The notes beneath the pieces are model-generated. The model was not told the origin of the DNA. It ran no database searches and was given only the letters and a program-made list of their open reading frames with translations. A stretch of 32,961 nt of DNA from Paracoccaceae bacterium (GTDB taxonomy: Bacteria; Pseudomonadota; Alphaproteobacteria; Rhodobacterales; Rhodobacteraceae), in NCBI GenBank assembly GCA_024763335.1, contig JANTFS010000007.1, positions 1 through 32,961 on the forward strand. The letters run 5' to 3'. A program made the position numbers and the translations under genes. Shown in pieces: positions 24,300 to 32,468 of this stretch (position 1 is its first letter; each line of letters opens with the position of its first letter).

Positions 24300-25565
24300 T
24301 CAGCGCGCATACGGGTCCTTGAGTGCGGGCAGGATGGTGCCAGTGCACTCGCCAAACCCGATTCGGTAGCCATCGCCTCGTGCGGCGCCCTGCAAAGCAA
24401 GCGTGTCGCCATCCTCCAGGAAGCTGCGGGTTTCGCCGCCGTCCAGCGTGATCGGTTCCTTGCCGCCCCAGCTCAGCTCCAGAAGCGAGCCGCGGCTTTC
24501 CTTCACCGGCCCCGAAATCGTGCCCGAGCCGAGCAGATCGCCCACCCGCATCGGGCAGCCGCTGGTGGTGTGATGCGCCAGCTGCTGGGCGGCGGAATAA
24601 TACATCTCGCGGTAGTTGGTGCGCGTGATCGTCGTGGGCGCCTTGCCTTTGGGGGCGAGGGTGACAGACAGGTCGATGTCATAAAGCATAGGGCCCGGCT
24701 CTTCGAGATAGGGCAGGAGCGGGCGCTCGCGCGGTGGCGTCGAGGTGCGGAACGGCTCCAGCGCGGCCTTGGTGACGATCCACGGGCTGATCGAGGTGGC
24801 CGTGGCCTTGGCCTGAAAGGGGCCGAGCGGCTGGTATTCCCATGCCTGAATGTCGCGCGCCGACCAGTCGTTGAGCAGCACGTAGCCGAAGATCATGTCG
24901 TCGGCCTCCTGCACCGTCACCGGCCCCTGCGACGGCTGGCCGACGATCGCGCCCATCTCCAGCTCCAGATCAAAGCGCTTGCAGGGGGCGAAGCTGGGCA
25001 GTTCGGCATCGGGCGCCTTGATCTGCCCCCACGGGCGGCGCACCGGCGTGCCTGAGACAACCACCGATGACGCCCGCGCATTGTAGCCGATCGGGATCGA
25101 CAGCCAGTTCGGCGGAAGCGCGTTTTCGGGGCCGCGAAACATTGTGCCGACGTTGAACGCATGATGCTTGCCGGCATAGAAATCGGTGTATTCCGAGACG
25201 CGGAAGGGCATGTGCAGCGTCGCTTCCGACATCTTCACCGAATAGGTCGTGAGCGCGTCGCGCGTCGCCTCGTCGGCGCTTTCCGAGAGCATTTCGGTAA
25301 GCCGGGCGCGGTAGGCCGCCCAGGCTTCGGGGCCGAGCTCCATGAAATCGTTCCAGAATGGGGCGTCGAGCACATCCGCGTCCGCGTCGGCCCGCAGGAT
25401 GCCCGCCTCCTCGAGGCCGGTGGCGTCGATGATCCGGTCGCCGATCGCCACGCCGCAGCGCATCTCGCCGTCACCTGCGGAAAACACCCCATAGGGAAGG
25501 TTGTTGAGCGGAAAATCGGTTTCGGCGCTGTTGGCGCTCTCGATCCAGGATTTCGCAAGCGGCAT
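24300..25565 (-). CDS. fahA: Fumarylacetoacetase
   Basis: This 421-residue enzyme cleaves fumarylacetoacetate to fumarate and acetoacetate, the last step of tyrosine/homogentisate degradation. The metal and catalytic residues match mammalian FAH closely: Asp128, His135, Glu201, Glu203 and Asp233, within TDFYAGKHHAFNVGTMFRG, DLELEMG and LNDWSARDIQ. The full FAH length including the N-terminal SH3-like domain supports a true FahA rather than a generic FAH-fold hydrolase. AGGA lies before the ATG at 25565. It follows the metallo-hydrolase gene by 11 nt in an operon with hmgA; no maleylacetoacetate isomerase gene is present nearby. Confidence 0.96.
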   Translation of the reverse strand: MPLAKSWIESANSAETDFPLNNLPYGVFSAGDGEMRCGVAIGDRIIDATGLEEAGILRADADADVLDAPFWNDFMELGPEAWAAYRARLTEMLSESADEATRDALTTYSVKMSEATLHMPFRVSEYTDFYAGKHHAFNVGTMFRGPENALPPNWLSIPIGYNARASSVVVSGTPVRRPWGQIKAPDAELPSFAPCKRFDLELEMGAIVGQPSQGPVTVQEADDMIFGYVLLNDWSARDIQAWEYQPLGPFQAKATATSISPWIVTKAALEPFRTSTPPRERPLLPYLEEPGPMLYDIDLSVTLAPKGKAPTTITRTNYREMYYSAAQQLAHHTTSGCPMRVGDLLGSGTISGPVKESRGSLLELSWGGKEPITLDGGETRSFLEDGDTLALQGAARGDGYRIGFGECTGTILPALKDPYAR

Positions 25566-25576
25566 CGGGCGTCCTT

Positions 25577-26431
25577 TCATCCAAGCGGCAGGGTCAGGCC
25601 ATCGTGGCCGATGTGCAGCGGGCCCTGCCAATATCGGCTGGCCTCTGCCCGCCAGTCGGCCTCGGTATAGTCGGGATCGTCAACAGGGACGAGGTGATTG
25701 AGCGCGAGCGCCTTCACGCCTGCCTGAGCGGCGATGCGGCCAGCCTCGGCGGCGGGTGTGTGCGAGCGGAGCAGGTGGCGTTTGAGCCGGTCGTCGCCAT
25801 TGCCCACCCGGGCGCAGAGCGCATCGACCCCGGCGGAGAGCATCGCTTCATGCACGAGCAGGTCTGCGCCACGCGCGAAGCGGGCCATCTCTTCCATCGC
25901 GGCGGTATCGCCCGAGAGCGCGACGGAAACGCCGGGGGCGTCAAAGCGCAGGGCGAAACTTTCCTTGATCGGAGGGTGCACGTTCTTCATGGCGCGAACG
26001 GCGACCGATCCGAGCGAGAGTCCGTCTTCGGTGAGCAGGTCCAGCTTCGCCAAGGTTGCAAGGTCGGGCCGGCCCTCGTCACGGATGCGCAGGGCGATGT
26101 CGAAATCCATCGAGGCGAGGAAGCCGCGCCAGTAGTCGGCAAGCCCGTCCGGCCCCCAGATGGGAATGGGGCGCTTGAGGCCAGCGGTCCAGGCCGTGTG
26201 CAGGAGCGGGCCGAGCTCGAGGTAATGGTCCGAGTGCAGGTGGGTGATGAGAATGGCGTCAATGCCCGTGAGCGGCACACCCGCATCGCACAGGCCCCGG
26301 GTGACACCGAGCCCGGCATCGACGACGATGTTGAGCCCGGCCATGCGCAGGAGGATCGAGGTGGGCATCGGAGTGCCGGGCCGGATCGCCGGGCCGCCCT
26401 TGGTTCCCAGAAGGGTGACGCTGTCAGTCAT
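25577..26431 (-). CDS. Metallo-beta-lactamase-fold hydrolase in the homogentisate operon
   Basis: The 284-residue protein is a metallo-beta-lactamase-fold hydrolase of the RNase Z/arylsulfatase-like branch. Zinc ligands are visible: HLHSDH (His64, His66, Asp68, His69), a further His in KNVHPP, Asp in ALSGDT and His in LNHLVP. The ATG overlaps the hmgA stop (ATGA) and fahA follows 11 nt later, so it is expressed with homogentisate catabolism. A role there, for example opening a lactone or thioester side product, is inference; the known pathway does not need it, and no isomerase is encoded in its place. The protein does not resemble maleylacetoacetate isomerase. Confidence 0.85.
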
Positions 26432-27774
26432 TTCACGCCCGGCGTGCCGTCGAACTTCTTCTCCAGCCCGTCCCAGCACTCGATGTAGTCGTCCTGCAAC
26501 GGCGCTTGCGTGGCGGCGAAGGCCGTCAGGTGCTGCGGGAAGCGGGTCTCGAACATGAAACTCATGGTATTGTCGAGCTTGTGCGGTGCAAGCTCGGCAT
26601 TCGACGCCTTTTCGAAGGCGGGCGCGTCGGGCCCGTGCGGCAGCATCATGTTGTGAAGCGACACGCCGCCGGGCACGAAGCCCTGCGGCTTGGCGTCATA
26701 TTGGCCATAAATATTGCCCATGAACTCCGACATGATGTTCTTGTGATACCACGGCGGGCGGAAGGTATGCTCAGCTACCATCCAGCGTTCGCGAAACAGC
26801 ACGAAGTCGATATTCGCGGTGCCCTCCTGCCCGGAAGGCGCGGTGAGCACGGTAAAGATCGAGGGGTCTGGGTGATCGAACAGGATCGCGCCGACCGGGG
26901 AGTAGGTTGTGAGATCGTATTTCACCGGCGCGTAATTGCCATGCCACGCCACCACGTCGAGCGGGCTGTGGCCGATCTCGGTGCGGTGGAACTGGCCGCA
27001 CCACTTCACCGTCACCGTCGAGGGCACTTCGCGGTCTTCGAAAGCGGCGACGGGCGCGAGGAAATCGCGCGGATTGGCAAGGCAGTTGGCGCCGACGGGG
27101 CCGCGGTTGGGCAGATCGAACTTCTGGCCGTAATTCTCGCAGACGAAGCCGCGGGCGGGGCCTTCGACGATCTCGACGCGGAACACCATGCCGCGCGGCA
27201 GGATGGCGATTTCCTTCGGCGCGAGGTCAATCGTGCCAAGCTCGGTATGAAAGCGCAAAAGCCCCTGCTGGGGCACCACGAGCAGTTCGCTGTCGGCGGA
27301 GTAGAAGTAGTCGTCTTCCATCGAGCTGTTGGCGAGGTAGATATGCGTGGCCAGCCCGACTTGGGTGTTGACGTCGCCAGCCGTGGTCATCGTGCGCATG
27401 CCGGTGATGAAGGTGAGCGGTTCGTCGGAATGCGGCACCGGATCCCAGCGGTATTGCCCCAGCGAGATCACGTCCAGGTCGATGTTCGGCGCCGATTTCC
27501 AATCGGGCATGTCGATCTTTTCGAACCGGCCGGTGTGTTTGACCGAGGGGCGGATGCGGTAGCACCATGTGCGCTCGTTCTGGCCGCGCGGGGCGGTGAA
27601 GGCGGTGCCGGAAAGCTGTTCGGCATAGAGCCCGTAGTTGCACTTCTGCGGCGAGTTCTGCCCTTGGGGCAAGGCGTCGGGCAGGGCCTCGGTCTCGAAG
27701 TCATTGCCGAAGCCGGGCATGTAGCCGGGCGTAATGCCCATCAGGCTTTGAGCGCGCGTCATCTCGCGGGTCAT
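26428..27774 (-). CDS. hmgA: Homogentisate 1,2-dioxygenase
   Basis: HmgA opens the ring of homogentisate to maleylacetoacetate with non-haem iron. The 448-residue protein has the iron ligands His344, Glu350 and His380 in [14 protein letters not shown] and NMMLPHGPD; the 6- and 30-residue spacings equal those of the human enzyme (335, 341, 371). The conserved [12 protein letters not shown] lies at the N-terminus. GGGGAGA precedes the ATG at 27774; the open frame upstream is non-coding. It is the first gene of hmgA-hydrolase-fahA, with a four-base overlap into the second gene. Confidence 0.97.
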
Positions 27775-27822
27775 GGCGTTTCTCCCCAATCTGGTCCAAC
27801 ATCCTGCCGCTGGCGCGAGTAT

Positions 27823-27838
27823 CGTTGCGGGTGCAACG
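27823..27838. promoter_or_regulatory. Palindromic operator candidate between hmgA and the DapB-like gene
   Basis: CGTTGC-GGGT-GCAACG is a perfect 6-bp inverted repeat in the 82-nt gap between the two divergent genes, about 50 nt before hmgA and 19 nt before the reductase. TTGC/GCAA half-sites are common for several repressor families. No regulator gene lies next to it, so the binding protein is unknown. Confidence 0.45.
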
Positions 27839-27856
27839 TAGTCAAGAAAAAGGGGC

Positions 27857-28633
27857 ATGACGATGTTGAGGATCTGCGTGGCAGGGGCGACGGGTTGGAC
27901 GGGAAGCGCGATTGCAGAGGCGGTGGCGACGGCAGAAGACATGGCGCTGGTGTCCTGCGTGGCGCGCCGCGCGGCGGGAAGCGAGATTCATGGCGCGCCC
28001 TGTTTTGCCACCGTCGAACAGGCGCTGGGCGGTCCTGAGTTCGATGTGTTGATCGACTACACGGCGCCCGGCGCGATCAGGGCCCACACCCAAGCTGCCG
28101 TCACCGCGGGGCGGGCGGTGGTCGTCGGCACGTCTGGGCTCACCGCGGCCGACTATGACGAGATCGACACTGCAGCGCGCGCGGCGGGCGTTGGTGTCGT
28201 GGCCTCGGGCAATTTCGCGCTGACGGCGGCCTTGATGACCCGCTTCTCGCTCATGGCGGCCGAGCATCTCGACTGGTTCGAGATCCTCGACTACGCCAAG
28301 CCCGGCAAGATCGACGCCCCCACGGGCACGGCGCGGGAACTGGCCGAGCGCATTGGCGAGGTGAAGCAGCCTGCGTTCGAGGTGGATCCTGCGAGCGTGA
28401 AGGGCGAGCCGGGTCTGCGGGGCGGTACTGTGAACGGTGTGCAGGTTCACAGCCTGCGCCTGCCCAGCTATTCCGCGACGGTCACCAGCACCTTTGCCCA
28501 CGGCAATTCGAGGCTCACGATCACCCATGACGCTGGCCAGGATGCGACGATCTATGCCGATGGAACGCTTCTCGCCGTGCGCAGGGTGATGGAGATCCAC
28601 GGACTGGTGCGGGGGCTCGACAACCTGCTGTGA
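27857..28633 (+). CDS. DapB-like (dihydrodipicolinate reductase family) oxidoreductase
   Basis: The 258-residue protein has a Rossmann GATGWTG motif (residues 10-16), GTSGLT and [10 protein letters not shown] blocks, and a C-terminal domain like DapB. At the active site DapB normally reads HHRHKxDAPSGTA; here the aligned stretch is [13 protein letters not shown] (147-159), so Lys151 and the DAPTGT loop remain but the catalytic His pair is replaced. It is therefore probably a paralogue with another substrate and not the lysine-pathway enzyme. GGGG precedes the ATG; a second ATG two codons on is possible. It is divergent from hmgA across a palindrome. Confidence 0.78.
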
Positions 28634-28681
28634 ACGGGGCACGCCGTCTGCCCGAACAGAAAACCCATACAATTGTTCCGG

Positions 28682-28710
28682 GTAAGTCCCTCTTAATCTC
28701 CACGCGCTAT
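28682..28710 (+). promoter_or_regulatory. CtrA-like box and -10 upstream of motB
   Basis: GTAA-N7-TTAA (28682-28696) matches the CtrA consensus TTAA-N7-TTAA at seven of eight fixed bases and occupies the -35 position. Nine bases later comes GCTAT (28706-28710) as the -10. Transcription would start about 25 nt before the motB ATG. The layout is the same as upstream of flgE. Confidence 0.6.
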
Positions 28711-28742
28711 CCCTGTTCGTGGGTGAAATGAGAGGTGGTGGG

Positions 28743-29576
28743 ATGAGCGCGCAGTCAAATGCGCCCATCATCATCAAGAGGGTGAAAAAGGGCGGTGGCG
28801 AGGGCCATCACGGCGGGGCCTGGAAAGTGGCCTATGCCGACTTCGTGACCGCCATGATGGCCTTCTTCATGTTGATGTGGCTTCTGAACGCAACAACGGA
28901 AAAGCAGCGCAAGGGGATAGCGGACTATTTCAGCCCGACCATTCCGGTCATGCGCGCGTCGGGCGGTGGTGATGGCGCCTTCGGCGGTGACAGTGTCTTC
29001 ACCGATGAAACCATGGCACATACCGGGCATGGCGGCGTGCCCAACCCGGCCGTCGACGAGGAAAATGACAGCGCTCAAGGCGGTCGAAATGTCGATGCGG
29101 CCACGGAGCAGCAGGTGCTCGAAGAGATCGAGGAGGTTCTCACCGGCAATTCCGGCGAGAGCATGGCCAGTGATCTGGCGCGTCGCCACGTGGTGACCGA
29201 ACTCACCGATGCCGGGCTGGTGATCGAGCTGTTTGACCTTGAAGGCGAGCCGCTGTTCGGGCCGGAAGATGCCGAGCCCACCCCGGTGATGCGGGATCTG
29301 GTGGAAATGCTCACCGCAGTGCTTGATCTTGTGCGCAACGGGATTGCTGTTGAGGGCTATGTTGCGGCACAGCCGGTTGTCATGGCCCACAACACTGCTT
29401 GGGAACTGTCGGGCGACAGGGCGAGCCGGGTTCGCAAGATGTTGGAAACGGCCGGTGTCGCGCCGGAGCGCCTGCAACGGGTGACCGGACATGCCGATCG
29501 CAACCCCGCGGCACGCAACCCGATGGCGGTGCGCAACAACCGGATCGAGTTGGTGCTGCTGAGATCGAAGCGCTGA
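28743..29576 (+). CDS. motB: Flagellar motor stator protein MotB
   Basis: MotB pairs with MotA to form the proton-driven stator and anchors it to peptidoglycan. The 277-residue protein has a cytoplasmic start, one membrane helix (~28-50) with the proton-binding Asp33 in YADFVTAMMAFF, a linker, and an OmpA-like domain (~150-277) with WELSGDRA (Arg226) and VTGHADRNP. The usual GHTD that binds diaminopimelate reads GYVA here, so the key Asp is missing at residue 208. I chose the ATG at 28743 downstream of GAGAGG. MotA is not in the window. flgE follows with its own promoter-like sequence. Confidence 0.93.
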   Translation: MSAQSNAPIIIKRVKKGGGEGHHGGAWKVAYADFVTAMMAFFMLMWLLNATTEKQRKGIADYFSPTIPVMRASGGGDGAFGGDSVFTDETMAHTGHGGVPNPAVDEENDSAQGGRNVDAATEQQVLEEIEEVLTGNSGESMASDLARRHVVTELTDAGLVIELFDLEGEPLFGPEDAEPTPVMRDLVEMLTAVLDLVRNGIAVEGYVAAQPVVMAHNTAWELSGDRASRVRKMLETAGVAPERLQRVTGHADRNPAARNPMAVRNNRIELVLLRSKR

Positions 29577-29598
29577 AACGAGCAAACAATTTTAGTCA

Positions 29599-29627
29599 TT
29601 AGTCTGGCGTTAAGCCGTGGGCGCTAT
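29599..29627 (+). promoter_or_regulatory. CtrA-like box and -10 upstream of flgE
   Basis: TTAG-N7-TTAA (29599-29613) matches the CtrA consensus at seven of eight fixed bases, followed after nine bases by GCTAT (29623-29627). Downstream it shares CTGTT with the motB promoter at the same offset. The start would lie about 30 nt before the flgE ATG. Confidence 0.6.
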
Positions 29628-29664
29628 GGCTGTTGCACAAAGGGTTGCAGCAGAAAGGCGCACC

Positions 29665-30981
29665 ATGACGATTTCCTCCTCACTCAGTGCCGGTGTGGCT
29701 GGCCTCAACGCCAATGCAACCCGGCTTGCAACAATTTCCGACAACATCTCGAACTCATCGACCTACGGGTACAAACGGTCGACGGCAGATTTCCAGGCGC
29801 TTGTCGTCGGCGGCATGAACGGTGCGGGAATACAGCCCGCTGGCGGCGTGCGGGCGACAACGCAAAGATTGATCGATGAGCACGGCCCGCTGATCTCCAC
29901 ATCCAACCCGACAGACATTTCGGTATCTGGCCGCGGCTTGCTGCCCGTGATCAATGAGGCCTATCTCGACCTTGAGGGTGAGGATCGGCCGATGCTGGTG
30001 ACCACAACGGGGTCTTTCCGCACCGACCAGGACGGAAATCTCAAGACGGAAACGGGGCTCGTCCTGTTGGGCTGGCCAGCCGATGCCGATGGAAATGTCA
30101 ACACCTACCCGCGCGATACGGTCACGGCATTGGAGCCGGTCCGAGTGCAGGTGAACCAGCAGTCCGGGGATCCGACGACCCGGATGAACTTTGGCGTCAA
30201 CCTGCCGGCAACCGATACAGAATTCGGAGCAACCGGCGATGAATTGCCGCTGTCAATCGAGTATTTCGGCAACCTCGGCACGTCCGAGACCCTCAACGTA
30301 GCTTTCACGCCTTCGGTGCCGGCCGCGGATGGTGATCCACCCACCAACACCTGGACGATGGCGATTCGCGATACGGCCTCAGCCGGGGCATTGGTCGGCG
30401 AATACACCCTTGTTTTCGATGACAGCCGGGCCAATGGCGGGACGCTTGCCTCGGTCACGGTGGTATCGGGTGGAGCCTACGATGCCAGCAACGGCACGCT
30501 CGACCTAGCGGTTGGGGGCGGGCCGATGGAAATGACCATCGGCAAGATCGGCGATCCGAACGGGCTCACACAATTGTCCGATAGTTTTGCACCGGTCTCG
30601 ATCAGCAAGGATGGCTCGCCGGTTGGCAATCTGACCTCGGTCGAGATCGATGTGAACGGCTACGTGACCGCGACCTATGACACCGGGTTCACCCGCACGA
30701 TCTATCAGGTGCCACTTGTCGACGTCCCGAACCCGAACGGCATGATCTCGCATTCGAACCAGACCTATCAGGTGTCGCCGCAATCGGGGTCGTTCTTCCT
30801 CTGGGATGCGGGCGACGGACCCACGGGTGAGGTGATCGGCTTCACGCGCGAAGGGTCAACCACCGACGTGGCCGGCGAACTCACCAACCTGATTCAGACC
30901 CAAAGAGCCTATTCTTCGAATGCAAAGGTCATCCAGACGGTCGATGAGATGTTGCAGGAGACGACCAACATCAAACGCTGA
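29665..30981 (+). CDS. flgE: Flagellar hook protein FlgE
   Basis: FlgE forms the curved hook of the flagellum and is exported by the flagellar type III system. The 438-residue protein has the rod/hook N-terminal motif (SAGVAGLNANATRLATISDN with ISNSSTYGYKRS) and the C-terminal GELTNLIQTQRAYSSNAKVIQTVDEMLQ segment, here given in part, that together form the D0 coiled coil. The middle (~150-370) is the variable hook domain, with several Asp/Gly-rich loops. No signal peptide is present, as expected. AAAGG lies seven bases before the ATG at 29665. flgK follows after 26 nt and is probably cotranscribed. Confidence 0.94.
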   Translation: MTISSSLSAGVAGLNANATRLATISDNISNSSTYGYKRSTADFQALVVGGMNGAGIQPAGGVRATTQRLIDEHGPLISTSNPTDISVSGRGLLPVINEAYLDLEGEDRPMLVTTTGSFRTDQDGNLKTETGLVLLGWPADADGNVNTYPRDTVTALEPVRVQVNQQSGDPTTRMNFGVNLPATDTEFGATGDELPLSIEYFGNLGTSETLNVAFTPSVPAADGDPPTNTWTMAIRDTASAGALVGEYTLVFDDSRANGGTLASVTVVSGGAYDASNGTLDLAVGGGPMEMTIGKIGDPNGLTQLSDSFAPVSISKDGSPVGNLTSVEIDVNGYVTATYDTGFTRTIYQVPLVDVPNPNGMISHSNQTYQVSPQSGSFFLWDAGDGPTGEVIGFTREGSTTDVAGELTNLIQTQRAYSSNAKVIQTVDEMLQETTNIKR

Positions 30982-31007: not shown

Positions 31008-32468
31008 ATGAGTGTCGCCAGTTCGCTTTCCAATGCTCTCTCGGGCCTGACTGCCTCGTCCCGCGCCGCCGAACTGGTGTCATCCAACGTCGCCAACGCG
31101 ATGACGCCGGGCTACGGGCGGCGCGAGATCGAGCTCCGGCCGCATCACCTCGGCGACGGAACGCCGGCGGGCGTCCGGGTGACGGGGGTTCGGCGCGAGG
31201 TCGATATGGTCATCGTGCAAGATCGGCGCCTCGCCGATGCGGCGCTCGGCCATGGGCAAACGCTTGCTGGCTTCCAATCCGAGATGGAAGCAATTCTCGG
31301 AACCCCGGACGAAGCCGGGTCATTGTCCGACCGGATCGCGCAGTTGGAAGCCTCCTTGATCGAGGCGGGATCGCGACCAGACAGCGCGGCGCGGCTGGAT
31401 ACCGCCGTGCGTGCGGCGCAGGCGCTCGCCGGCCACCTCAATACTGCGTCGAGCAAGGTGCAGGCCACGCGCATGAGCGCGGACGCGAAGATTGAAGTCC
31501 AGGTCCGCCAGCTGAACGATGGGCTTCTGCGGGTCCAGAACCTCAACTACCAGATCAAGGAATCCATCGCCCGCGGGCAGGATCCGTCGGCTTTGATGGA
31601 CCAGCGCCAACAGACGATCGATGCGCTCTCGCCAATTGTTCCGCTGCATCAGGTCGACCGCGACCATGGCATGGTCGCACTCTACACCACCGGCGGCGCC
31701 GTTGTCCTCGATGGCCGCGCCGCGGAAATCGGTTTCGCAAAGGTTGGTGTGATCGTGCCGGAGATGACGCAGGCCTCGGGCGCCCTTTCCGGTTTGTCCA
31801 TCAATGGCCACCCGATGCGCACCAACGGGAATCGCAGCCCTGTTCAGGGCGGGTCGCTCGCCGCGCTGTTCGAAATCCGCGACGAACTTGCAACCGGCGC
31901 GCAGGCCCGGCTCGATGCCGTGGCCCGCGATCTGGTTGAAAGGTTCCAGGATCCCAGCCTCGATTCCACGCGGGCAGCCACCGACGCCGGCCTGTTCACC
32001 GATGCCGGCCAGAGGTTCGAGACAATCAACGAGCTCGGGCTCTCGGAGCGGATCGTTGTCAACAGCCGCGTGGTGCCGGACGAAGGTGGCGCGCTCTGGC
32101 ATCTGCGTGACGGGCTTGGAGCCGCGAGCCCGGGCGATGTTGGCGACGGCGCGCTTCTGCACGATCTCGCCGAGGCGCTCGCAGCCCCGCGCGTGGCCGC
32201 GTCGGGCGATTTCCTTGGCGTCGCACGGTCCGCCAATGGACTTGCCGCGGATTTTTTGTCTCTCGTCAGCGCCGCGCGCACCGATGCGGAGGCCCGGCAA
32301 AGCCACGCCAGCGCACATCTCGACAGTCTCAAGTTCATGGAACTGGGCGCCGGGGTCGATACCGATCAGGAGATGCAGAAACTCCTGCTAATCGAACAGG
32401 CCTATGCAGCGAATGCAAAGGTCATCAGCACGGTTGATGCCATGCTCAATGCGTTGATGGAGATCTGA
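31008..32468 (+). CDS. flgK: Flagellar hook-associated protein FlgK
   Basis: FlgK is the first hook-filament junction protein, joining FlgE to FlgL. The 486-residue protein begins with LSNALSGLTASSRAAELVSS followed by NVANAMTPGYGRR, the conserved N-terminal D0 motif, and ends with LLIEQAYAANAKVISTVDAM, the matching C-terminal helix. The middle contains DQRQQTIDALSP. The length is a little shorter than E. coli FlgK (547). A perfect AGGAGG lies before the ATG. flgL starts three bases after its stop, so flgE-flgK-flgL form one operon. Confidence 0.95.
   Translation: MSVASSLSNALSGLTASSRAAELVSSNVANAMTPGYGRREIELRPHHLGDGTPAGVRVTGVRREVDMVIVQDRRLADAALGHGQTLAGFQSEMEAILGTPDEAGSLSDRIAQLEASLIEAGSRPDSAARLDTAVRAAQALAGHLNTASSKVQATRMSADAKIEVQVRQLNDGLLRVQNLNYQIKESIARGQDPSALMDQRQQTIDALSPIVPLHQVDRDHGMVALYTTGGAVVLDGRAAEIGFAKVGVIVPEMTQASGALSGLSINGHPMRTNGNRSPVQGGSLAALFEIRDELATGAQARLDAVARDLVERFQDPSLDSTRAATDAGLFTDAGQRFETINELGLSERIVVNSRVVPDEGGALWHLRDGLGAASPGDVGDGALLHDLAEALAAPRVAASGDFLGVARSANGLAADFLSLVSAARTDAEARQSHASAHLDSLKFMELGAGVDTDQEMQKLLLIEQAYAANAKVISTVDAMLNALMEI

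Follow-up and report, generated by a model that had tools for sequence, protein, structure and literature searches.

The described system most readily compared with the locus analyzed here is fla2 of R. sphaeroides (Cereibacter), in which motB2, flgE2, and flgK2 lie in one cluster, as their counterparts do here (PMC6180460; this and the other papers cited are drawn on in part). Expression from its flgE promoter, flgE2p, falls from 148 to 1.4 reporter units when ctrA is absent, and 5'-RACE places the transcription start 23 or 24 nt past the CtrA box (PMC6180460). Five mapped R. sphaeroides promoters share an invariant A at −11; a G at −4 is also described, and both motB2 and flgE2 are among the best predicted CtrA sites of that organism (PMC6180460). 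A CtrA site has likewise been predicted at flgE of Dinoroseobacter shibae with the Caulobacter consensus (PMC4046655), and in Caulobacter promoters with full sites, TTAA-N7-TTAA is positioned with its 5' base near −35 (−39 at ctrA P2) (PMC4287350).

The two promoters described below resemble those of fla2 in their CtrA box, which, counted from a start predicted to lie 23–24 nt past it, would be near −35, with an A at about −11. They differ in that the available text of PMC6180460 reports a measured start and CtrA dependence for flgE2p (no such dependence being given there for motB2), whereas at the present locus both are predicted. That same text describes neither a fixed TTAG at flgE nor an A/T tract at motB and flgE. 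Relative to the full sites of Caulobacter, as presented in the available part of PMC4287350, the boxes here are mostly one base off, with the same deviation recurring per gene across genera.

The motB-flgE region and its predicted promoters

The window, by which we mean the whole stretch of 32,961 nucleotides that was analyzed, is the entire contig 7 of an incomplete assembly of a Paracoccaceae bacterium (GCA_024763335.1; 89.88% complete, 296 contigs, 3.0 Mb). On its plus strand, dapB is followed by motB (28743..29576), flgE (29665..30981), and flgK (31008..32468), the last two of which are probably co-transcribed. The product of motB matches the Pfam families MotB_plug and OmpA, and for both motB and flgE the Pfam matches exceed their gathering scores; the NCBIfam equivalog models for MotB and FlgE are the best matches, yet they score below their curated cut-offs. 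flgK scores above the cut-off of TIGR02492. Adjoining the flagellar genes on the minus strand (24300–27942) is a cluster encoding homogentisate 1,2-dioxygenase, a metallo-beta-lactamase-fold protein, and fumarylacetoacetase, which presumably serves tyrosine degradation. Elsewhere in the window, positions 2473–2545 of the plus strand match the Rfam family SorX (RF02784, singlet oxygen resistance RNA X) with 61.6 bits, exceeding the gathering score of 46.6.

Upstream of motB, the sequence GTAAGTCCCTCTTAA (28682–28696, plus strand) is followed after nine bases by GCTAT (28706–28710), then by CC and CTGTT; upstream of flgE, TTAGTCTGGCGTTAA (29599–29613, plus strand) is followed after nine bases by GCTAT (29623–29627), then by GG and CTGTT. 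Both predicted CtrA boxes agree with TTAA-N7-TTAA at seven of eight positions, reading GTAA-N7-TTAA at motB and TTAG-N7-TTAA at flgE. This arrangement of box, nine-base spacer, GCTAT, and equally offset CTGTT had been pointed out for both intergenic regions in the initial annotation, and it is exact at those positions. Transferring the start distance of R. sphaeroides (23–24 nt; PMC6180460) would place the motB transcription start at 28719–28721 and that of flgE at 29636–29638, with the A at 29637 preferred. The G that PMC6180460 gives at −4 has no counterpart at precisely that position here, the closest G being at about −5.

The predicted leaders contain further conserved stretches, for which we counted the 82 motB and 87 flgE regions of the filtered set of relatives described below. 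At the putative 5' end of the motB leader, GGGTGA (28721–28726) is exact in 45 of 82, and beyond it lies a second Shine-Dalgarno-like stretch, GAGGTGGTGGG. The Shine-Dalgarno region of the flgE leader carries CAGCAGAAAGG (29648–29658) in 47 of 87 and the shorter form CAGAAAGG in 62 of 87; CAGCAGAAAGG exceeds the length needed for a Shine-Dalgarno sequence. Folding of the leader RNAs gave z scores of −2.31 for motB and +1.14 for flgE.

Conservation of the boxes and of the −10 region

Relatives were drawn from two samples, the first comprising 30 loci from 60 related genomes searched, 49 of which had a match, and the second comprising 80 named GTDB loci (the 80 best out of 587 confirmed stretches) that belong for the most part to Rhodobacteraceae, among them Ruegeria, Sulfitobacter, Rhodovulum, and Paracoccus. 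Combined, these yielded 110 motB and 105 syntenic flgE upstream regions, with five of the 110 loci lacking flgE in the right place. In this unfiltered set, the best box within 250 bases reaches at least seven of eight matches in 72/110 motB and 101/105 flgE regions, and a box of that quality lies 38–66 nt before the start codon in 67/110 and 97/105, respectively; 20 dinucleotide shuffles of the same regions gave at most two such positioned boxes for motB and one for flgE. Distant families and several Paracoccus have a poor motB box or none. Within the genus (seven genomes), both boxes have at least seven of eight matches in all seven.

For a finer comparison, motB rows below 46% and flgE rows below 54% identity to the window protein were dropped, as were identical 79-base segments and regions whose best box had fewer than six of eight matches or lay outside 38–66 nt of the start, leaving 82 of 96 motB and 87 of 92 flgE regions. 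Because these filters favor good boxes, the unfiltered counts are given alongside, and because the sequences are related, none of the counts represent independent events. The best box was picked by its match to TTAATTAA, which biases the comparison against detecting fixed mismatches.

Downstream of the box, the feature kept at a fixed distance is a TA step (28708–28709 at motB and 29625–29626 at flgE). It starts 11 bases past the box (+12/+13) in 49/82 motB and 42/87 flgE regions and one base later in a further 23/82 and 8/87, while at the eight offsets closer to the box it occurs in 0/82 and 1/87. The surrounding letters are rarely kept: GCTAT at N9 is present in 9/82 motB and 4/87 flgE regions, CTGTT at the shared offset in 1/82 and 2/87, and of the genus's seven genomes that of the window is the sole one with GCTAT at N9 before both genes. 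We hence rejected GCTAT as a conserved unit, its constant part being TA alone, and rejected the shared CTGTT likewise. With TA kept and GCTAT and CTGTT rarely kept, the layout is that of a box plus a −10 region, and the letters that the two regions have in common are for the most part coincidental. The spacing common to both copies corresponds to how far the −10 region lies from the box. TTAA-N9-GCTAT (with CTGTT) is not supported as the sharper motif that had been proposed.

An upstream A/T element phased with the box

Directly upstream of each box lies an A/T element, AATTGTT at motB (28671–28677, plus strand; −11 to −5 from the box and about −49 to −43 from the putative start) and AATTTTA at flgE (29588–29594, plus strand). 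In both, AATT is matched exactly, and the register with the box is conserved among relatives, where the consensus reads AATTT.A at −11 to −5 before the motB box and ATTTTA at −10 to −5 before that of flgE. Over −11 to −5, the information content amounts to 2.76 bits for motB and 4.52 bits for flgE, about four times what the best among 1000 randomly chosen registers reached (0.62 bits for motB and 1.07 bits for flgE). A weaker A/T peak (−21 to −18) is found about 11 bases further upstream and is poor in the window's own flgE region. We rejected the idea that the tract is a by-product of the motB stop codon or of the start codon, because the distances to both vary while the register with the box holds: the distance between the motB stop and the flgE box ranges from −4 to 84 bases (with one outlier at 1262), and the start codon follows the box by 44–62 bases at flgE and 39–63 at motB, within the 38–66 allowed by the filter.

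Combining part of this element with the flgE box, the pattern TTKA-N4-TTAG-N7-TTAA matches 155/290 family genomes, a figure to be read with the backwards control, which also matches some (not summed). Of 30 such loci examined, 24 lie 50–60 nt upstream of flgE and 6 elsewhere. TTTA or TTGA at −8 to −5 is found in 31/82 motB and 53/87 flgE regions and in 0/23 at the divergent fliL/fliF site (described below) in either direction, while a TATAA −10 is present in 8/23 for fliL, 0/82 for motB, 0/87 for flgE, and 0/23 in the fliF direction. At fliL, the contrast would fit a gain in −10 strength at the expense of contact upstream, an idea that the fliF direction does not bear out.

UP elements of bacterial promoters are tracts of A/T located between −40 and −60, as a pair spaced by about 11 bp. 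The tracts at motB and flgE are alike in composition, in spacing, and in their fixed register within the −40 to −60 region, as counted from the putative start, and they differ in standing directly upstream of a presumed bound activator, with any contact to the alpha subunit putative. We consider that the tract probably aids the binding of polymerase, for instance by serving as a contact for the C-terminal domain of the alpha subunit. A change at −42/−43 of the R. sphaeroides promoter flgB2p was without severe effect (PMC6180460), which argues against a general upstream element.

The tract could alternatively serve a second regulator and not contact polymerase; candidates would be a repressor of the MucR type, or CtrA itself through another half-site. 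We regard this reading as somewhat doubtful but worth serious consideration. MucR prefers A/T-rich DNA. According to a published passage, it also represses CtrA-activated genes in Caulobacter. Located 8 bases ahead of the box, TTTA within the flgE tract resembles a CtrA half-site, and the small effect of the flgB2p change would suit a regulator site as well. On the other hand, the two halves of the CtrA box repeat at 11 bases and not at an offset of 8, and the spacing of about 11 bases between the tract and the weaker peak also speaks against this reading.

Counts in the window and genome

Counted within the window alone, TTAA-N7-TTAA with at most one mismatch occurs twice against 0.53 expected, and since 8 of 100 shuffles also reach two, the boxes alone are not significant there. 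Exact TTAA-N9-GCTAT occurs twice in the 3.0-Mb assembly, both times at motB and flgE, but the backwards control gives one, so that the raw count is not unusual. When loosened to the box, N9, and GCTA with at most two mismatches, the search of the window's own genome returned 19 sites forward versus 52 backwards; four of the 19 are at motB, flgE, fliL/fliF, and ctrA, and the other 15 are without assignment to a known CtrA gene. We rejected the literal composite as a search tool, in view of these backwards controls and of how rarely its letters are kept in relatives.

A pattern built from the conserved parts, with AATT upstream, the box, and TA downstream, has exact matches in the window's own genome solely at motB and flgE and one extra site at one mismatch; its backwards control gave 1 and 4 with at most two mismatches. 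Across the family, the composite with one mismatch matched 184/295 genomes, to be read alongside a backwards control that also matches many (totals not summed). A weight matrix made from the motB and flgE sequences ranks these two genes first in 7/7 flagellar regions, a partly circular result, and was rejected as a regulon-wide motif, giving weak hits at fliF (named by eye) in three of the seven regions.

The counts of boxes, of exact TTAA-N9-GCTAT, and of the loosened composite do not stand out; what does stand out is where the matches coincide. That the two regions resemble each other could in principle reflect chance, or an A/T richness shared by promoters, without any involvement of CtrA, and the counts of boxes and of TTAA-N9-GCTAT, along with the poor conservation of GCTAT and CTGTT, lend themselves to such an explanation. 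We nevertheless hold it to be very improbable, as the boxes recur at the same place before both genes far beyond what shuffled regions produce, with the flanking elements phased to them. Conservation in relatives excludes chance for the boxes; for the letters of GCTAT and CTGTT, chance stands as the explanation.

CtrA and other candidate regulators

The genome encodes a CtrA of its own (NF045991, 433.7 bits; cut-off 350) and, on the same contig and upstream of ctrA, SciP (NF051866, 128.8 bits; cut-off 100), as well as a ChpT-type HPTransfase domain. Together with the conserved boxes, the fixed distance to TA, and the published dependence of flgE2p, this machinery lends good support to the proposal of the initial annotation that CtrA activates motB and flgE. 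We conclude that both sites are very probably CtrA-activated promoters, a judgment that leaves aside the role of the A/T tract, and that they are a real but ordinary pair, representing a known class of flagellar promoter in a new genome.

By this mechanism, CtrA-P would occupy the 15 bp of the box, from about −38 to −24, in place of a −35 element, and would recruit RNA polymerase with the housekeeping sigma factor to a weak −10, the most constant part of which is the TA step, with its A at about −11. At motB and flgE, polymerase binding would probably be assisted by the tract directly upstream of CtrA (about −49 to −43).

The boxes might instead be used by another response regulator of the OmpR/PhoB type, and the genome does contain six Trans_reg_C matches that exceed the cut-off, including one within the window. 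This seems to us just as improbable as chance, given that the boxes fit the CtrA consensus, that similar boxes stand before ctrA and at fliL/fliF in the same genome, and that the R. sphaeroides orthologue of flgE depends on ctrA (PMC6180460). A sigma-54 promoter at flgE, by analogy with the later flagellar genes of Caulobacter, where according to the discussion in PMC6180460 most rod and ring genes need RpoN and FlbD, is disfavored and the least credible of these readings, since a GG/GC pair at −24/−12 is not evident by eye in the 87-sequence flgE profile, no RpoN serves fla2 (reported there as unpublished), and flbD is absent from the Rhodobacteraceae compared in that paper.

Gene-specific deviations from the perfect box

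The mismatches within the CtrA boxes are themselves conserved in a manner that depends on the gene. At flgE, position 4 of the left half is G in 82/87 regions, and the whole TTAG-N7-TTAA is present in 80/87. At motB, the left half is mostly TTAA (position 4 is A in 73/82) and the right half is variable, the commonest pairs among the 82 being TTAA with TTCA (15), TTAA with GTAA (15), and TTAA with TTAA (12); the left half GTAA of the window's own motB box is unlike that of its six congeners.

Two further sites were compared in samples of 23 loci each, these being the members of the window's family among the 30 loci returned per search. The divergent fliL/fliF site has TTAA-N7-TTAG in 21/23 relatives, and in the window's own genome, where both genes were named by eye from their translations, it reads CTAA-N7-TTAA towards fliF. 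The ctrA site has GTAA-N7-TTAA in 21/23, the same form that stands 55 bases before the start of ctrA in the window's own genome. A perfect box is present in 12/82 motB, 1/87 flgE, 0/23 fliL/fliF, and 0/23 ctrA regions. At one ctrA locus (L254), two CtrA-like boxes lie five bases apart, GTAA-N7-TTAA and then a gene-proximal TTTA-N7-TTAA. Overlapping the fliL/fliF box, an inverted repeat CCGATTG ... CAATCGG is exact in 5 of the 23 rows (L219, L220, L221, L222, and L228) and is possibly a second operator.

Discussion

Judged by their sequences, the two promoters do not form a matched pair, and each carries a conserved signature of its own. In place of the literal composite, the arrangement is better described by a predicted box with gene-specific deviations and a TA step 11–12 bases downstream, to which motB and flgE add an A/T element upstream that keeps register with the box.

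More tentatively, the CtrA promoters of Rhodobacteraceae may carry phylogenetically fixed, gene-specific box deviations of one base (at motB, a degenerate right half) that act as an affinity code, an idea suggested by the pattern of mismatches and one that we consider possible rather than probable. The sites would then be of less than full strength, each gene being turned on at a given level of CtrA-P, with an A/T boost at motB and flgE that is absent from the divergent fliL/fliF site. In the literature consulted, we found no mention of a conserved TTAG at flgE or of an upstream element at CtrA flagellar promoters, although the paper on the CtrA regulon of R. sphaeroides (PMC7167476), which lay outside the search, may describe them.

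The perfect CtrA box is the exception, and the deviation from it at flgE, ctrA, and fliL/fliF is itself conserved; target searches that demand a perfect TTAA-N7-TTAA would hence miss such sites or rank them down. If affinity is in fact set by the deviations, this could account for the ordering of flagellar assembly by a single regulator in a group where, according to the available text of PMC6180460, flbD is absent from the species compared and RpoN does not serve this flagellum.
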